Both the position numbers and the translations under genes were made by a program. Shown here piece after piece: positions 4,140-22,907 of a stretch of 23,099 bases of DNA. Numbering within the stretch: the stretch's first letter is position 1; each line of letters begins with the position of its first letter. Origin of the DNA: a virus; IMG/VR virus record IMGVR_UViG_3300025941_000100, positions 1 to 23,099 of that record. One strand, written 5' to 3'. The notes below the pieces were generated by a model, which was given only the letters and a program-made list of their open reading frames with translations, had not been told where the DNA came from and ran no database searches.

Positions 4140-4588
4140 GGTGCCTCGGCGAGGGCCCGCTTGGTCATCAGATCGAGCTCGGAGTCGGTGAGCATGCCGA
4201 GGGCCCGGCCGGTGACCTGGCGCTCGGGACTCATCTCGCGGATCGCTTCGAGGTACAGCTTGGCCGCAGATACGTGGCGCGGATTGCGCACATCGGCAGC
4301 TGCCTCGTAGAGGGCGTCGAGCACGGCCTGGCGCTTGTCGAGGTCGCCGATGACCTGGTCGGTCTCGCCCTGCCAGACCTCGCGGAACTCCCGGTCGTGC
4401 TTCCAGTTGTAGAGCGTCTTGACGTGGACGTCGATCATCCGGGCGAACTCGGCCTCGGTGGGCGGGTTGCGTGCCGTCGGCGGCGTGGTCAGCCACTCGA
4501 TGTAGCGCATCTTCTCCGGGTTCTGGCGGACCGGCTCGTACATCTTGGACACGCCGCCATTGTGCACGACGAGGAGGGTCTTGACCAT
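4136..4588 (-). CDS. terS: Putative terminase small subunit (HTH)
   Basis: 150 aa from ATG 4588 (an internal ATG at 4543 is an alternative; neither has a convincing Shine-Dalgarno sequence). Residues about 35-60 form a helix-turn-helix of the phBC6A51-type seen in phage TerS proteins: NPPTEAEFARMIDVHVKTLYNW followed by KHDREFREVW. The rest is helical and would oligomerise. TerS recognises the packaging site and delivers DNA to TerL. The call depends on this HTH and on being the first gene of the TerS/53-aa/TerL/portal run. It is read divergently from the ribbon-helix-helix gene, with only 28 bp between the starts. Confidence 0.75.
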   Translation of the reverse strand: MVKTLLVVHNGGVSKMYEPVRQNPEKMRYIEWLTTPPTARNPPTEAEFARMIDVHVKTLYNWKHDREFREVWQGETDQVIGDLDKRQAVLDALYEAAADVRNPRHVSAAKLYLEAIREMSPERQVTGRALGMLTDSELDLMTKRALAEAP

Positions 4589-7563: not shown

Positions 7564-8279
7564 TGGGCTGGGGGGACGCGCAGGGCGGGCGACCGCGCAA
7601 GCTCTACGTTCGGCGGCGGGAGGACTACCCGCCGCCGAACCCCCAGCCGACGCCGTGCCGGATCTGGCAGGGGTCGGTCGATCGCTTCGGATACGGCAGG
7701 GTCCTGGTCCACACCACGGACGACAAGCGCCGCCAGATGACGGCCAGCCGCTGGATCTGGACGATGGCCAACGGCCCGATCCCGAAGGGCCTGGTAGTCC
7801 GCCACAAGTGCGACAACCCGCCGTGCTTCCGCCTATCGCACCTCGAGCTCGGGACCTACAGCGACAACAACAACGACGCCGCCGAGAGAGGTCACCTCGG
7901 TGCGCCGTCCAAGCTGCCCCCCAGCCTGATCGAAGCCGTCAGGCTGGGCCGGGCAGCGGGGCTCTCGTACCCCAAGATCTACGACGACTGGCCCGAGATC
8001 AAGCGGCTGGTCACGATCCGCGGCCTGCGCTGGATCGGCAAGAAACTCGAGAACGGGTGGGTTCCCGCACCACCCCTGCCCGAGGGCTACAGTCCACGAC
8101 CACACGCCGCAGCCACACGGCGTGTGAGTCCCGAAAAGGAAGAAGCCGCTGCGAAGTACGCAGCCTGGCGGACCGAACGGAACGGAACACACGATGACCG
8201 ACTCGATCGAGACAGCGATGCTGGAAGCCCACCGGGCCGGGCTCTCCGTGATCCCACTGAAGGCGAACAAGCGTCCTGA
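7563..8279 (+). CDS. HNH endonuclease
   Basis: 238 aa, ATG at 7563 sharing its A with the SSB-like stop (TGATG). Residues about 33-110 form an HNH domain of the phage homing type: CRIWQGSVDRFGYGRV, MTASRWIWTMANGPIPKGL, then VVRHKCDNPPCFRLSHLELG with H81, C83, C88 and H93, and TYSDNNNDAAERGHL containing the catalytic-loop asparagines (102-104). The C-terminal part is an alpha-helical, charged extension that overlaps the Prim-Pol start by 86 bases. Such genes can be free-standing homing endonucleases that insert next to replication genes, or nicking partners of packaging. Here the position between SSB and Prim-Pol favours a homing-type insertion. Confidence 0.85.
   Translation: MGWGDAQGGRPRKLYVRRREDYPPPNPQPTPCRIWQGSVDRFGYGRVLVHTTDDKRRQMTASRWIWTMANGPIPKGLVVRHKCDNPPCFRLSHLELGTYSDNNNDAAERGHLGAPSKLPPSLIEAVRLGRAAGLSYPKIYDDWPEIKRLVTIRGLRWIGKKLENGWVPAPPLPEGYSPRPHAAATRRVSPEKEEAAAKYAAWRTERNGTHDDRLDRDSDAGSPPGRALRDPTEGEQAS
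8101..8126 (+). other. Inverted repeat inside the HNH gene
   Basis: Arms CACACGCCG (8101-8109) and CGGCGTGTG (8118-8126) are perfect 9-bp complements with an 8-base loop. It lies near the 3' part of the HNH gene, about 70 bases before the Prim-Pol ATG, with no T-tract after it. It may tune translation of the downstream gene or be an attenuator; chance within GC-rich coding DNA is also possible. Confidence 0.4.
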
Positions 8280-10458
8280 CGTCGTCAGCTGGCGCGAGTA
8301 CATCGAGACCCAGGCCGACCTGCTGACGGTGCAGCGCTGGGCCAAGCGGACCGAAGGATTCGCCATCATCTGCGGCGGGCCGACGCGGCTGCAGGTCCTC
8401 GACTTCGAGGGCCGATTCATGGAGCACATGGACGAGCTCCGCTCCCGGCTCGGTGAGCACGCCAGCGTGTTCGAGTCATGGCTCGACGGGTACTTCGTCG
8501 TCACACCGGGCGGCGGGTTCCACGTCGCCGTGCACGTCGAAGGCGAGGCGCAGGAGGGCAACACCAAGCTGGCCTCGGACGGGTCGGGGATGACCCTGGT
8601 AGAAACCCGTGGCCACGGCGGCTACGTCGTGGCAGCGCCATCCAACGGAACGACTCACCCCACGGGCCAGCCGTGGGTGCAACAATCGGGATCGTTCGAC
8701 ACGATCGCCTGGGCCACGGCGGGACAGTGGCAGGCAATCTGTGCAGCGATCTCCACATTCGACGCCGTGGCAGCGTCGGAGACCCCGCCCGAGGCGCTAC
8801 GTGTTCCGGCGCTGCCGGGCGGGGTCTCACTCTCGAGGATCGAGCACACCGACTCGTGGATCGACGGGGTGCAGCTGCCACCGATGGACATGGTCCTCGA
8901 CAACAACGGCTGGAGCTACGAGCACTCCGACGAGTTCCACAGCTACTGGGCGCGGCCGGGCAAGGACCCGCGCGAGGGCCACTCGGCGACGATCAACGCC
9001 AAGGACCGGCTCTACGTGTTCTCCTCGAACGCACACCCGGTGCCGACCTCGGTGAACAACCAGACCTACGATGTCATCGACGTCCTGGGGTGCTACCAGC
9101 TGGGTCAACTCCCCTCCCAGTCGGAGCGAGTCGAGATCCTCCGCAATCTCGCCGGGATATCGGGCCAGCCGCGGACGCCTCCTTCGACGTCCGACGGTTG
9201 GCTCTCCGACGACTTCTGGACCGCTACACCGTGGCTGGAGGCAATCCGCGCCGCGGCCCACGGCAACGGCAAGTGCCCGGAAGGCCTGCTCGGTGCGGTG
9301 CTCTCGGCCTACTCGGTGCGGGTTCCCTCCTCGATCCGGGTGGCACCGATCGTGCACGGAGTGGCCTCACCGCTCAACCTCTACGTCGCACTCTGCGGGC
9401 CCTCGGGCTCGGGGAAGTCCTCGACAATGGCGATGGCGCAGCAACTCTGCGACGCCTACGACGACGAGTCCTACCACTACGGAGTCAACCTGCGCAGCGG
9501 AGAGGGGCTGGTGACGGAAGCGATCGTCAAACAGGTGGTCAAGCGCGGCGAGCCAGAGCCACCACCCCGCTACCTGCTCGGGCTGCAGGTGGAGTTCGAC
9601 GAGGGCAAGACGCTGGCGGTGCAGAACGACCGCTCGGGCGCAACGATGGTCCCCTACTTGACGACGGCGTGGTCGGGCCAGCGGGGCAAGCACGTCGGCG
9701 GGACGAAGGCTGCGGGCAGCGAGAAGTTCCCCGCAGACATGGTGCGAGTGTCGCTGGTACTGGGGGTTCAGTACGGCGTAGCGGGCTCGTTGTTCACGGG
9801 GGACGTCGAGAGCCTCGGATTTCCTGGTCGGTTCCTCTACTTCGGGATGGACAACCCTGGCCCGAAGCTGAAAGCTGGCGAACAACGTCGCGTCGTGCCG
9901 CTGATACTGCCTCGGTACTACCCCGGTGACGCCAGCCGCGCGATCGGTGAGATGGTCTTCCCGCTGGAGGTACAGCAGGAGGTTCTGGACTGGGACTACG
10001 CCCGTTCCACGGTGGGAGGCCTCGCCATCGACGGGCACCGGATGCTCCTGCGACTGCGTCTTGCCTGCCTCCTGGCCCTGATGGACCGTTTCGCGCAGCC
10101 AGAGCCCCTCCACTGGCAGCTGGCTTCCGAGATCGAGGCGCACTCCCTCTGTACGAGATCACGGGTTCTTGCTGGAGTATCGGAGGTTGCTGTAAGGAAC
10201 GCCCGTGCCGCAGGACGGATGGACGCGATTCGAGAGAACGAGAGGCATCTCAGCTGGATCGAGGAGCGTGCAATCAGCCTGGCCAAGGCGGTGCACGATG
10301 AACCGCTTACAGCGCGACAGGTCAAAGATCGTTTCCGCAAAGAGAAGCGCCAGCTGATCCCGGAAGTAGTTCAGTATGCCATTGAGCGCGACTGGGTCGT
10401 ATATCGCACCGAGGGGGCAGCAAAGCTGCTCGTGCCGGGTGAGAGCCAGCCTTCGTGA
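8194..10458 (+). CDS. Primase-polymerase (Prim-Pol) fused to ATPase/helicase-like domain
   Basis: 754 aa. Residues about 1-190 are an archaeo-eukaryotic-type Prim-Pol domain: LEAHRAGLSVIPLKANKRP, the metal-binding LQVLDFEG (D70, E72), the histidine of TPGGGFHVAV (H110) and GHGGYVVAAPS (140-149). Residues about 340-640 form a P-loop ATPase with Walker A GPSGSGKS (402-409) and a Walker B-like VEFDEG (466-471), similar to DUF3987-type helicase-like domains that often follow Prim-Pol. The C-terminal 80 residues look like a winged-helix (EPLTARQVKDRF..VVQYAIERDWVVYRT). It would synthesise primers and drive fork or origin opening. A nearby non-coding repeat region begins at its stop codon. Codon choice in the last roughly 100 codons is less GC-biased than before. 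Confidence 0.85.
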   Translation: MTDSIETAMLEAHRAGLSVIPLKANKRPDVVSWREYIETQADLLTVQRWAKRTEGFAIICGGPTRLQVLDFEGRFMEHMDELRSRLGEHASVFESWLDGYFVVTPGGGFHVAVHVEGEAQEGNTKLASDGSGMTLVETRGHGGYVVAAPSNGTTHPTGQPWVQQSGSFDTIAWATAGQWQAICAAISTFDAVAASETPPEALRVPALPGGVSLSRIEHTDSWIDGVQLPPMDMVLDNNGWSYEHSDEFHSYWARPGKDPREGHSATINAKDRLYVFSSNAHPVPTSVNNQTYDVIDVLGCYQLGQLPSQSERVEILRNLAGISGQPRTPPSTSDGWLSDDFWTATPWLEAIRAAAHGNGKCPEGLLGAVLSAYSVRVPSSIRVAPIVHGVASPLNLYVALCGPSGSGKSSTMAMAQQLCDAYDDESYHYGVNLRSGEGLVTEAIVKQVVKRGEPEPPPRYLLGLQVEFDEGKTLAVQNDRSGATMVPYLTTAWSGQRGKHVGGTKAAGSEKFPADMVRVSLVLGVQYGVAGSLFTGDVESLGFPGRFLYFGMDNPGPKLKAGEQRRVVPLILPRYYPGDASRAIGEMVFPLEVQQEVLDWDYARSTVGGLAIDGHRMLLRLRLACLLALMDRFAQPEPLHWQLASEIEAHSLCTRSRVLAGVSEVAVRNARAAGRMDAIRENERHLSWIEERAISLAKAVHDEPLTARQVKDRFRKEKRQLIPEVVQYAIERDWVVYRTEGAAKLLVPGESQPS

Positions 10459-10492
10459 GGTGGGGGGACGGTGGGGGGACCGTCCCCCCACC
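10459..10492. repeat. G6/C6 repeat cluster 1
   Basis: GGTGGGGGGAC occurs twice in tandem (10459-10469 and 10470-10480, an 11-bp period, one helical turn) and then inverted as GTCCCCCCACC (10482-10492). The second and third copies make a perfect 23-bp palindrome around C10481. It starts at the base after the Prim-Pol stop, so it could form a very stable hairpin at the mRNA end, although no T-tract follows. Confidence 0.8.
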
Positions 10493-10513
10493 CCGCGCGA
10501 AATCGGGCACAGC

Positions 10514-10529
10514 TACCGATATATCGGTA
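10514..10529. promoter_or_regulatory. 16-bp perfect palindrome, operator candidate
   Basis: TACCGATATATCGGTA reads identically on both strands, with an A/T core of six bases. It directly abuts the -35-like TTGCAT at 10530-10535. A perfect A/T-cored palindrome next to a promoter is typical of a dimeric repressor or activator site. The binding protein is unknown. Confidence 0.55.
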
Positions 10530-10557
10530 TTGCATCGTACCTGGTAAATACTAAACA
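10530..10557 (+). promoter_or_regulatory. Weak promoter candidate in control region
   Basis: TTGCAT (10530-10535) and TAAACA (10552-10557) are 16 bp apart, with A/T-rich spacer end. Match to consensus is modest. It would transcribe through the second repeat cluster toward the gene at 10992, possibly also making an untranslated leader or origin transcript. Confidence 0.3.
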
Positions 10558-10591
10558 GCTTCAACGGCCGCTCGTAACTGTACCCACGCGT

Positions 10592-10634
10592 GGTGGGGGG
10601 ACGTCCCCCCAGGTCCCCCCACCTGGTCCCCCCA
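10592..10634. repeat. G6/C6 repeat cluster 2
   Basis: One forward copy GGTGGGGGGAC (10592-10602) is followed by three inverted copies of GTCCCCCCA at 10603-10611, 10613-10621 and 10626-10634. The forward copy and first inverted copy make a perfect palindrome centred between 10602 and 10603. Together with cluster 1 there are seven copies of TGGGGGGAC in about 175 bases, three forward and four reverse. Confidence 0.8.
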
Positions 10635-10635
10635 C

Positions 10636-10652
10636 ACTCCGCTGAGCGGAGT
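10636..10652. repeat. 17-bp dyad after the repeat cluster
   Basis: ACTCCGC (10636-10642) and GCGGAGT (10646-10652) are perfect complements around TGA. It lies one base after the last G6/C6 copy and could be a hairpin or a dimeric protein site. Confidence 0.5.
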
Positions 10653-10846
10653 ATCGGCTTCTTCGTGCTCTTCTATCCGAAGCATTCGGGCCATCCGCCG
10701 CCACTCGCTCTAGAAACTGTCTCTCCCACCTGCAATCAATCATTCCAGCGTATGGGGCCCCGAAAAGCCCAAATCTGCAATCACATGATTTTGTACCCAG
10801 GCCACACCCTTCTTGCTTCCACCCAGTACTCCCGCTCGTGGCCCAG

Positions 10847-10867
10847 GTGGGGGGGGTGGGGGCAGGG
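10847..10867 (+). other. G-quadruplex-like G-run
   Basis: Runs of eight G (10849-10856), five G (10858-10862) and three G (10865-10867) are separated by T and CA, preceded by GGT. With four usable G-tracts this matches the pattern of a potential intramolecular G-quadruplex on the plus strand. It lies in the control region, 125 bases before the next gene. Confidence 0.5.
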
Positions 10868-10875
10868 CCGACCCG

Positions 10876-10930
10876 CATAACCCCTGGTAGATGGCCATAT
10901 CGGCCGACGAAGGTGGACATAACCCCTGGT
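10876..10930 (+). repeat. Two 13-bp direct repeats spaced 42 bp
   Basis: CATAACCCCTGGT occurs at 10876-10888 and identically at 10918-10930. The 42-bp centre-to-centre distance is four turns of B-DNA, placing both copies on the same face of the helix, as for cooperative regulator sites or iterons. They lie 62-116 bases upstream of the ATG at 10992. Confidence 0.65.
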
Positions 10931-10991
10931 CAGAGCACTAAGTAGACCGATCGGGATGGTCCGTATCGGCAGGACACAGGGAGATAGAACG

Positions 10992-11795
10992 ATGAGCGAT
11001 ACCAGCACGATGGTGCCGACGGCCGACCCCAAGGCGGTAGCCCAAGCCACCGCGGTAATCGGGGCGGTTGGCACCTGGTCGGAATGGATGACGGAGCACG
11101 CGGATGCCTACTTCGTCACGATGATCGACCAGGTGACGACAGCACTGGCCACGGTCGCCCCGAGCGTGACCAGCGCCTATGGCGTGTGGTCGGCCGAGCA
11201 CCCAACATGGGAGCGCAAGCGCTTTACGGCGACGGATTGGGTGACCGCGGTGGGCAACCAGCGCGGCGAGGCATGGGAGATCGACAGCATCGATCTGGCC
11301 AGGTTGACGATCCCGTTCGGGCTCGCACTCTGGGGCCATACCACGGGATCGATGGCGCACTACTTGAAGGTGTGCACGAACGATCTGACAGGTACGTACG
11401 GCGTGCGTGACATCGATGGCTACCTGGCCTGGTTGCCCAAGCGCTCCGAGTACCAGATGACGAATGACAAGGGCAAGCGCGTGGACATCGCGGTGCGCTC
11501 GCAAGAGGCGATCGATGCCGACGAGGCCAAGTCCGCGGCCACCAAGGCCAAGGTCAACCGCAAGGCGGAGTACAACCTCACCGGCTACGTGTGGGACACC
11601 ATCGCCGATCCCAAGGCGTTCGCCACGACAAAGGACTATGTCAAGCGCCTGGTCGCACTTGAGCACGACTTCTCCGCCTTCGTGGCCTCCCAGGTGGCCG
11701 CGCTCGGTGACGAGGGCAAGTCGGCCAAGCGCGAGATCGCTAAGCAGGTATCCGACGCCACCAAGCCCAAGGCCACACCGCGGGCCAGCAAGTAG
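10992..11795 (+). CDS. Unrecognised 267-aa protein downstream of the control region
   Basis: Starts at ATG 10992 with Shine-Dalgarno GGGAG at 10979-10983; an upstream in-frame ATG at 10956 lacks one. No signal peptide or membrane segment is seen. Tryptophans are frequent in residues 28-120 (TWSEWMTEH, YGVWSAEHPTWERKR, TDWVTAVGNQRGEAWEID). Residues 165-200 are charged and helical (EAIDADEAKSAATKAKVNRK), and the last 40 are Lys/Ala-rich, ending PKATPRASK, a plausible nucleic-acid-binding tail. It is monocistronic, flanked by the control region and strong hairpins, which hints at high or separately regulated expression. I do not recognise the family; an initiator or origin-binding role would be speculation from position. 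Confidence 0.8.
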   Translation: MSDTSTMVPTADPKAVAQATAVIGAVGTWSEWMTEHADAYFVTMIDQVTTALATVAPSVTSAYGVWSAEHPTWERKRFTATDWVTAVGNQRGEAWEIDSIDLARLTIPFGLALWGHTTGSMAHYLKVCTNDLTGTYGVRDIDGYLAWLPKRSEYQMTNDKGKRVDIAVRSQEAIDADEAKSAATKAKVNRKAEYNLTGYVWDTIADPKAFATTKDYVKRLVALEHDFSAFVASQVAALGDEGKSAKREIAKQVSDATKPKATPRASK

Positions 11796-12761: not shown

Positions 12762-12777
12762 CCCCAGCTACTGCGAT

Positions 12778-12809
12778 CGAGCCCCATCCCCGTTAGGGGG
12801 TGGGGCTCG
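12778..12809 (+). terminator. Operon-boundary hairpin A
   Basis: Left arm 12778-12791 (CGAGCCCCATCCCC) pairs with 12796-12809, 14 bp including one G-U pair, with loop GTTA. It is followed by CGTCGTTCTC, which is weakly T-rich, and then by the leader AACCAGACAAGGGAGA of the next gene. Its right arm and the following bases closely match the hairpin at 14330. Confidence 0.65.
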
Positions 12810-12850
12810 TCGTCGTTCTCACAACCAACAACCAGACAAGGGAGATACCA

Positions 12851-14288: not shown

Positions 14289-14329
14289 TGGCGATTTCGA
14301 CAACCAGCCCCTGACCAGCAACCACATGA

Positions 14330-14359
14330 GAGCCCCTTCCCGGCAACGGGGAGGGGCTC
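14330..14359 (+). terminator. Operon-boundary hairpin B
   Basis: GAGCCCCTTCCC (14330-14341) pairs with 14348-14359, 12 bp with one G-T pair and loop GGCAAC. The stretch GGGGCTCGTGGTCGTTCTC that follows almost repeats the one after hairpin A (GGGGCTCGTCGTCGTTCTC), so the two boundaries are related sequences. Confidence 0.65.
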
Positions 14360-14452
14360 GTGGTCGTTCTCTGGCTCAGCGTTCCGAGCTCTCTCGGCGC
14401 GCTCAGCCGGTGCACGACCGTGCATCGGGAACCAACCAGACAAGGAAGAACC

Positions 14453-21398: not shown

Positions 21399-22907
21399 TC
21401 ACGCGAGGTCACCCATGAGATACCACTGGTCGGTGCCGGTCTTGACGAGGGTGGCTGCCGAGTAGCGGGCGCGGAATGCCAGCGACGGTGTCGAGTTGAC
21501 GGTGACACCGGAGCCTTGGGCGACGGTGACGATGCCGACACCGATCCCGATGATCGTGATCTGCGTGCCGGTCGGGAAGGCGACCGAGCTGTTCGGTGGC
21601 ACGGTGACGGTGACCGCGCTGGCGTTCGAGCAGGTGATCAGTTTGCTGGCATCGGTGAGCACCAACGTGTAGGTGGTGCCGGTCTGTGCGTTGATCGCCA
21701 GGTTGACCTTGGCATCGGTCAGCGTCTTGTTCGTCAGCGTCGCGGTCGCGGCGTCCTTGGTGGCGTCGGATGTGTTCGACACGTTGCCGAGACCGACCGT
21801 CGTAGCAGTCGGCGCCGTCCACCCGGCTGCACCGTTGAGCCACGTCGAAGCACCCGCACCGTTGGAGCCGGGTGTAATGCCCGGCGCCGTCGTCGTGGTC
21901 GAGAACAGGCTGGACGACTGCGCCGACGACAGGGACTGGAGTGCGATCTTGCCCGCCGAGATGGTGCCACCCGATGTAGCCAGAGCGACGGTGATCTCCC
22001 AGTAGGCACCCTTGTCCACCGAGTCGGCGGTCACGTTGAAGATGGCGTACTTCGACGCGTCTGCGTAGTCCTGCACGTACACCTGGAACCCGGCCTTGAT
22101 CCGACCGAGTCCGACCGCCACGTTGAGGCCGTCGACGGTGGTCTCCATGATCCACAACTTGGTGCTCGACGTGAAGGTGGCGTTGTTGCCGCGGATCTGG
22201 CTGCCGGTCGGCGGCTCGGTGGCGGTGGTCGAGAGCATGAACGGGAAGACTCCGCTCACCGCAGCTGCAGCTGACGGGGGCAGCGCCCACGTCGCGTCGT
22301 CACGCAGCATCCGCCCCGAGCTAGTACCACCCGGTGTCGGCACCGCGCCCTTCGTCGACACGGTGAAGTCGGAGATGTCGAGGGTGCGGTTGGCGGCGAG
22401 GCTGCCACCCCCTGTCAGCGGAGCGGTCGTCGAGATCGTCGTCGCCGCTGCTGCCGCACCGAGCGTGGTCAGCATCGCTGCCGTGGTGGTGTCGTCGAGC
22501 ACCGTCTTGGCTGCGGCGGTGACCACGCCCGTGTCGAGCATCCACGTTGCACCGCTGCCGCTGACGACGATGTCGCCCTTGTCGCCATCGGTGACAGCGC
22601 CACCGCTGGGGGTCTGCCAGTTGGTGTCGTAGTTGGTGCTCGAGATCTTGGTCAGCACCTGCCCGGTGGTGCCACCGGTCGCCACGCCGGGGCCCGTTGC
22701 CCCCGTCGCCCCGTCGGCGCCAGCTGGCCCTGTCGGTCCCGGCACCGTCGACGCTGCGCCCGTCGCACCCGTCGGACCCGTCGCCCCAGTCGGCCCCGTT
22801 GCTCCCGTCGGTCCGGTCGGGCCAGCAGGGCCGGTCGCTCCCGGAGGACCGGGCACCGGGTCGGGGAAGGTCTTGGTATCGCCGATGTACGTGCAGTCGA
22901 TGGTCAT
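21399..22907 (-). CDS. Tail fibre with collagen-like repeats
   Basis: 502 aa, ATG 22907 overlapping the previous stop (ATGA). After a short head ([19 protein letters not shown]), residues about 20-74 are Gly-X-Y repeats ([20 protein letters not shown] and more), forming a collagen-like trimeric rod. The middle is beta-rich and repetitive ([40 protein letters not shown], typical of phage fibre stalks), and the C-terminal part is a beta-sandwich ([20 protein letters not shown]). It probably mediates host attachment. The repeated TG-rich codons make recombination easy in this stretch. Confidence 0.88.

Follow-up and report, generated by a model that had tools for sequence, protein, structure and literature searches.

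An inverted-repeat array directly downstream of a phage primase-helicase gene: a likely replication origin with an exchangeable repeat word

The primase-helicase gene and the adjacent array

We analyzed a 23,099-nucleotide stretch of DNA, called the window below, from an IMG/VR phage record (IMGVR_UViG_3300025941_000100). It encodes the large subunit of the terminase, a portal of the P22/SU10 type, and a primase-helicase of 754 residues, in which the Pfam domains Prim-Pol (PF09250, E 5e-13) and DUF3987 (PF13148, E 1.5e-9) were found. A gene of HNH endonuclease (PF13392, 7560-8279) was located just 5' of the primase gene, as also in the relatives L004 and L005; it possibly encodes a homing or an origin-related nuclease.

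The full-length AlphaFold model of the primase-helicase was poor (mean pLDDT 40), and the C-terminal model alone was used. AlphaFold2 arranged the last 109 residues as helix-helix-helix-strand-strand with a mean pLDDT of 82, and structure comparison matched this model to winged-helix chains (Z up to 9.0, rmsd 2.5 over 77 residues). The C-terminus is predicted by the model to be a winged helix; this fold is common, and the matches are no evidence of function. The features of the locus are as follows (F, forward; R, reverse).

8194-10458, + strand: Prim-Pol/DUF3987 primase-helicase, 754 aa (Pfam domains), proposed origin-binding initiator
10219-10455, + strand: winged-helix region, residues 676-754 (AlphaFold2), proposed repeat-reading domain
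10461-10634: array as a whole, seven exact copies of TGGGGGGAC, 3 forward and 4 reverse
10461-10469, + strand: iteron F1 (TGGGGGGAC), cluster 1, exact match
10472-10480, + strand: iteron F2 (TGGGGGGAC), cluster 1, exact match
10482-10490, - strand: iteron R1, cluster 1, exact match; F2 and R1 form the palindrome 10470-10492
10514-10529: palindrome TACCGATATATCGGTA, between the clusters, inside the feature
10517-10535, + strand: conserved spacer motif CGATATATCGnTAnnGCAT, within the AT-rich 10516-10560, kept in relatives
10594-10602, + strand: iteron F3, cluster 2, exact match
10603-10611, - strand: iteron R2, cluster 2, exact match; F3 and R2 form an 18-bp perfect palindrome
10613-10621, - strand: iteron R3, cluster 2, exact match
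10626-10634, - strand: iteron R4, cluster 2, exact match
10636-10652, no strand: palindrome ACTCCGCT-G-AGCGGAGT, directly 3' of cluster 2

The original prediction had described seven copies, three forward and four reverse, in about 175 bases after the Prim-Pol/ATPase gene. Exact matching confirmed these copies as well as their position, with the first iteron starting 3 bp past the stop codon (gene end 10458). The predicted 11-bp period of cluster 1 held in part, the start-to-start steps being 11 and 10 bp, as did a perfect palindrome of 23 bases, which is an 11+1+11 structure (10470-10492) with an unpaired centre. A further palindrome, given as 20 bases, failed on length: the perfect palindrome covers 18 bp (10594-10611). 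The palindromes at 10514-10529 and 10636-10652 had been missed.

The start-to-start steps in cluster 2 are 9, 10, and 13 bp. The order of copies is F-F-R in cluster 1 and F-R-R-R in cluster 2, and cluster 2 without its last copy (F-R-R, steps 9/10) mirrors cluster 1 (F-F-R, steps 11/10). Between the clusters (10461-10490 and 10594-10634) lie 103 bp, including a 45-bp segment (10516-10560) with 60% AT against a window mean of 34% (genome 66% GC). We propose this AT-rich spacer with CGATATATCGnTAnnGCAT as the putative unwinding element; its melting is inferred. When 300 dinucleotide-shuffled windows served as the null model, the word occurred on average 0.32 times per whole window and never more than once within any 175-bp stretch. 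The seven-copy array is real and not due to chance, and its mirror layout and position are likewise directly observed.

Apart from the array, only a single further copy of TGGGGGGAC was found when both the window and the 31.5-kb relative G002 were searched. This eighth copy, at 7569, lies within the HNH-endonuclease reading frame (TGG GGG GAC = W-G-D) and is present in L004, L006, and L013 as well. It was rejected as a second site, being coding sequence: L004 keeps it though its own array word differs, and it is therefore a coding coincidence. GC skew, a check suggested by the original prediction, was uninformative; no clear switch was found at the array in the window.

Other repeats were also observed in the window. 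A long G tract (GTGGGGGGGGTGGGGG, 10848-10863), present in L007 as well, lies downstream of the array, before the next gene starts, and is outside the iteron pattern. Two intergenic copies of a 57-base inverted repeat, GAGCCCC...GGGGCTC (12764-12820 and 14315-14371, 75% identical), were found, as were tandem 9-base repeats (22666-22841), which encode a collagen-like G-X-Y stretch in what is probably a tail protein, on the minus strand.

Arrays with other words in related loci

Relatives with 55-82% identical primases had an array in the same place with a different word; the presence of such arrays is shown by direct comparison. The array of L004 (primase 82% identical) was composed of TGGGGGGCC and TGGGGGGGCC plus the reversed CAGCCCCCCA, i.e., TGGGGGG(G)CC/CT; the array word was TGGGGGAC in L010 and L011 (primase about 61% identical) and TGGGGACT in L005 (55-58%), while L007 contained TGGGGGGGCT-like copies. 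The array of G002, which is 99.97% identical over the window, was unchanged. Motif CGATATATCGnTAnnGCAT was present in the inter-cluster spacer of L010, L011, and L005; in L004 it follows cluster 1. The sequence of the palindrome at 10636-10652 was partly retained in L007 and L010, but its pairing was not.

The L007 contig (G001) demonstrated 99.8% identity with G002 over 18.8 kb, with 34 of the 40 differences packed in window positions 10589-10922, where the array word differs. G001 and G002 were identical over 10923-25686; therefore, a binding protein of altered specificity is not encoded there. The G001 contig breaks off within the array and lacks the primase, so the winged helix of L007 is not on the contig.

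Contigs stop in or just past the array at the end of L004, at the end of L005, and at the start of L007; hairpins, or strain variants of the cassette described below that confuse assembly, are possible causes. G001 (L139 and L140) overlaps G002 (L141 and L142) on either side, with 100% identity over 191 bp at one end and 99.8% over 18.8 kb at the other. This suggests a phage genome of about 46.3 kb that is circular or circularly permuted; G006, at 46.5 kb, is of similar size.

No match to the primase region was obtained by blastn among INPHARED phages, and the Prim-Pol search of genome contigs revealed no confirmed relative. A genome-wide pattern search for the spacer motif CGATATATCGnTAnnGCAT produced at least 117 hits in 257 Gb, which by our own estimate is about the chance level for 16 fixed bases, and the motif was rejected as a genome-wide pattern. 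Strikingly many of the genome-contig hits (L022-L118) were in Actinomadura genomes. Loci L014, L016, L019, and L020 contained the motif only, with no array around it, and no Prim-Pol match was found in the genomes of L014, L019, and L020, which were checked. L019 (about position 4398) and L020 (about 6487), both in 83-kb virus records, have in common a ACCGATATATCGGTAGTGCATG stretch that is similar to the spacer of the window and seems to be non-coding. A lone TGGGGGGACtcTCCCCCCA palindrome was observed at 1512-1531 of L001, a 16-kb contig without a Prim-Pol match.

Relatives detected in INPHARED by tblastn were only 24-34% identical. In 13 of the 15 fetched loci (TinyDot, Reyja, Dulem virus 32, prophiGD12-2, phiGD17-1, prophiGD05-1, Santhid, Tarzan, Jojo24, Hibiscus, DelRio, BetterKatz, and TPA4), the 300 bp that follow the primase-helicase stop contained 6 to 11 copies of one 7-mer, a count exceeding that in every other 300-bp stretch of the locus; such an excess was also found in several Mycobacteriales prophages. 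The words were CCTGGAA (Reyja, Santhid, Jojo24) and GTGGACA (Tarzan, Hibiscus) in the Gordonia group; CCGTGGACA in TinyDot; CGTGGCC in Dulem virus 32; TGTCGGC, GTGTCAG, and GTGGAGG in Mycobacterium prophages; TTGCTGG in DelRio and BetterKatz; and TCGGAAC in TPA4. No array was detected after the primase-helicase gene of Arthrobacter phage Eileen, also fetched; in CL31, GTGTGGT was repeated 8 times, yet richer stretches occurred elsewhere in the locus. Two-cluster arrays, each with a word of its own, were present at this position in distant phages of Gordonia, Mycobacterium, and Tsukamurella and in many mycobacterial prophages, and in most of the INPHARED arrays two clusters flank an AT-rich stretch.

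In genomes of Mycobacteriales and allied groups, approximately 16-18 of 28 loci had arrays as judged by eye, including CGGGGGGAC (L165) and GGGGGAC (L176); no array was detected in about 10 of the 28. Among 80 looser IMG/VR relatives (L201-L280), most were without a detected array, and 12 of the 65 testable loci were scored as arrays. Many of these hits align over the Prim-Pol domain alone, and the low rate therefore reveals little about full-length relatives. Five or more copies were found at 16 of 315 control ORF ends, a looser criterion than that of the IMG/VR scoring.

A strict test required the exact 6-mer pattern u-u-u' / 20-200 bp / u-u'-u', that is, F-F-R / F-R-R. None of the 117 control genome loci (879 kb) contained it; it was present in 27 of 140 primase loci (4/7, 5/15, 6/28, 5/10, and 7/80 by set). 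Where the gene end was mapped, the matching sites follow the primase-helicase gene, with the exception of L227. Spacings were mirrored in most strict matches (DelRio 8,11 / 11,8; L167 8,12 / 12,8; L207 11,6 / 6,11), which would fit two identical protein assemblies in opposite orientation. The thresholds of both the repeat-array and the strict-pattern tests were set after the array of the window was known, and the controls supply the background; the relatives are not independent, and the counts are not probabilities.

Annotated hypothetical genes directly after the primase-helicase gene (e.g., TinyDot gp58 and Reyja gp57) overlap the arrays. Such genes, several of which lie over proposed origins, were found in L148 (4730-5080), L150 (4721-4951), L151 (4751-5485), L152 (4766-5017), L155 (4748-4978), L156 (4724-4996), L157 (4721-4951), and L158 (4724-4996); it is possible that they are not real genes.

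Covariation of the word with the C-terminus

In 13 M. abscessus-type prophage loci, three words were found (the labels GGTGTCA and CTGACAC denote one word, GGTGTCAG), and the protein cores were 95-100% identical in all 78 pairs. The last 90 residues were 97-100% identical in same-word pairs and 41-47% or 77% identical in different-word pairs. Of five Gordonia phages, Tarzan and Hibiscus were 93-95% identical to Reyja, Jojo24, and Santhid over the whole protein; the last 90 residues were 74-76% identical in the compared pairs of different word class and 96-100% identical in pairs of one class. Sharp differences between near-identical proteins with different words were confined to the last 70-90 residues, approximately, and the array.

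The same was evident at the DNA level. In the pairs L192/L199 and Tarzan/Reyja, identity was 92-100% before this cassette, 47-86% in a segment reaching from about -200 to +200/+300 relative to the stop codon, and 84-98% beyond it. No dip in DNA identity around the stop was found in the same-word pairs L194/L192, L193/L199, and Tarzan/Hibiscus. In L195/L198, divergence persists for about 1 kb past the array. The word covaries with the C-terminus, and in two pairs the flanks are near-identical on both sides.

The strongest covariation is that of distant relatives, not that of the window's family, in which the winged helix has diverged no further than the remaining protein: the window and L010 share 62% identity both in the last 90 residues and over the whole protein, and for L004 the values are 79% and 82%, respectively. 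This counts against our reading, as do the loci without a detected array, the extended divergence of L195/L198, and the GC skew without a clear switch. The family offers few arrays, some truncated at contig ends, and its members are too few and too divergent for the covariation test to be repeated in it.

The proposed origin, alternative readings, and known systems

The array is likely a replication origin that the neighbouring primase-helicase reads through its winged helix, and this domain and the array are likely exchanged as a unit; this is inferred from sequence alone, without binding, replication, or coverage data. The original prediction of a candidate origin or initiator-binding array is supported by comparative evidence, and its function is not shown experimentally. 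We favour this reading because the array stays while its word changes as a set, because arrays are present in distant relatives, and because the word covaries with the winged helix. Absence of the array from relatives, which the prediction had named as one possible refutation, was not borne out; relatives keep it.

According to the proposed mechanism, the primase-helicase would bind the TGGGGGGAC repeats via its C-terminal winged helix, the 10-11-bp steps placing neighbouring sites on one helix face. The ATPase part would form assemblies of opposite orientation at the two clusters, which border the AT-rich CGATATATCG spacer; the assemblies would melt this spacer, and the Prim-Pol domain would prime both forks of a bidirectional replication. 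The winged-helix end of the gene and the array would form a specificity cassette of roughly 450-500 bp, swapped between replication genes that are near-identical in other respects. Protein binding, spacer melting, priming, replication in both directions, and why the cassette is exchanged are all inferred. Escape from nucleases (by analogy with PLE satellites, for which it is documented), and avoidance of satellites or of competition between co-resident phages are possible drivers of cassette change.

A bolder reading, which may prove wrong as readily as right, is that actinobacterial Prim-Pol phages share a mirror-image iteron origin, with word and winged helix exchanged as a cassette to give mutually exclusive replication specificities. 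If true, these specificities could protect against origin-targeting nucleases, satellites, and competing phages, comparable to the immunity groups of repressor-operator systems.

Among the alternatives, the repeats might be operators for a phage repressor or another regulator of the downstream gene (10956 onward). In favour of this, the inverted repeats lie between two same-strand genes and adjoin 320 bp of non-coding sequence, part of which is conserved as far as the next gene. However, the word is absent elsewhere in the window or G002 save for the one coding coincidence, and sites scattered in the manner of stoperators are not seen in these sequences; the word of G001 is changed, yet its sequence over 10923-25686 equals that of G002, which leaves no room there for a changed regulator; the word tracks the C-terminus of the primase-helicase itself in the better-sampled relatives; and we failed to find a sigma-70-like promoter in 10300-11000. 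We consider operators very unlikely.

About as unlikely is an RNA or cruciform role, in which the array would terminate or structure the primase transcript or form a hairpin recognised by shape, as proposed for pRN1. Positions 10456-10660 fold as one long stem between cluster 1 and cluster 2 (-113 kcal/mol, z -6.5), and the Prim-Pol plasmid pRN1 requires a 100-nt stem-loop 3' of its replication gene (PMC4234260). The mirror layout of inverted iterons, however, yields such pairing automatically, which accounts for the fold, whereas pairable arms need neither one common word seven times nor fixed-step direct repeats (F-F, R-R). The only terminator-like match was a separate 5-pair hairpin (10641-10658), no T run of an intrinsic terminator was found after either iteron-made palindrome, and a DNA-binding domain changes together with the word. 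Help from a cruciform at the origin is still possible.

A mobile REP/BIME-like palindrome or a functionless repeat expansion is all but excluded: G-rich inverted repeats of similar look are known as bacterial REP elements and the isolated TGGGGGGACtcTCCCCCCA palindrome occurs in the unrelated contig L001, but the same post-gene position and mirrored layout recur with different words at only 24-30% primase identity, and the array was not found elsewhere in these genomes.

If the array is indeed an origin, the origin of a broad phage group would be predictable from sequence alone, with the reader protein and its domain named. An organisation called unique to PICI satellites in 2018 (PMC6092414) would be extended to complete phages. 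Pairs of near-identical initiators differing in reading head and target word provide a data set for winged-helix recognition and for the question of why phages change replication specificity. No phage origin of this type was described in the open-access literature searched, which leaves most subscription journals outside coverage; the original prediction's statement that no known phage origin looks alike needs tempering, as SaPI/PICI satellites are similar (PMC6092414).

The alpha protein of phage P4 is a single primase-helicase whose winged helix binds origin repeats (PMC4234260). The window protein is likewise a single primase-helicase with a predicted winged helix, for which repeat binding is inferred; the P4 primase is of the TOPRIM type, whereas that of the window is Prim-Pol (PF09250). 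P4 also needs a second site, crr.

ORF904 of pRN1 combines an archaeo-eukaryotic primase and a helicase with a C-terminal winged helix, and the origin is located directly downstream (PMC4234260). The window resembles it in the Prim-Pol protein, the predicted C-terminal winged helix, and the downstream position of the putative origin; a long stem-loop 3' of the replication gene is also present, as a consequence of the inverted iterons. However, the pRN1 origin is described as a stem-loop without iterons, while the window has seven, and the pRN1 helicase is stated to be SF3, which is not established for the window protein.

In PLE, the satellite of ICP1, the DNA-binding domain of RepA changes together with the origin, the remainder of the protein being conserved; module swapping was inferred, and escape from an origin-directed nuclease was documented as a driver (PMC8263062). 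The relatives of the window show the same covariation with the remaining protein conserved. PLE differs in having an N-terminal RepA_N domain, three semi-palindromic iterons of about 30 bp, and no comparable primase domain.

The closest layout is that of SaPI/PICI elements, in which the initiator gene is followed immediately by two iteron sets with an AT-rich region between them (PMC6092414) and the C-terminal domain of SaPI Rep recognises the iterons directly downstream of the rep gene (PMC7581432). The array of the window is also located immediately 3' of the putative initiator gene, and its clusters flank an AT-rich stretch; C-terminal recognition is inferred from the predicted winged helix and the covariation in relatives, without binding data. 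In contrast to satellite islands, the window belongs to a tailed phage with terminase and portal (another contig of its family measures 46.5 kb), its initiator is Prim-Pol fused to the DUF3987 ATPase, and the mirror F-F-R / F-R-R layout and the winged-helix/array exchange are described here. Because the phage has its own structural genes, it is not a PICI; by layout, the window likely carries a PICI-like origin, its origin function being inferred.
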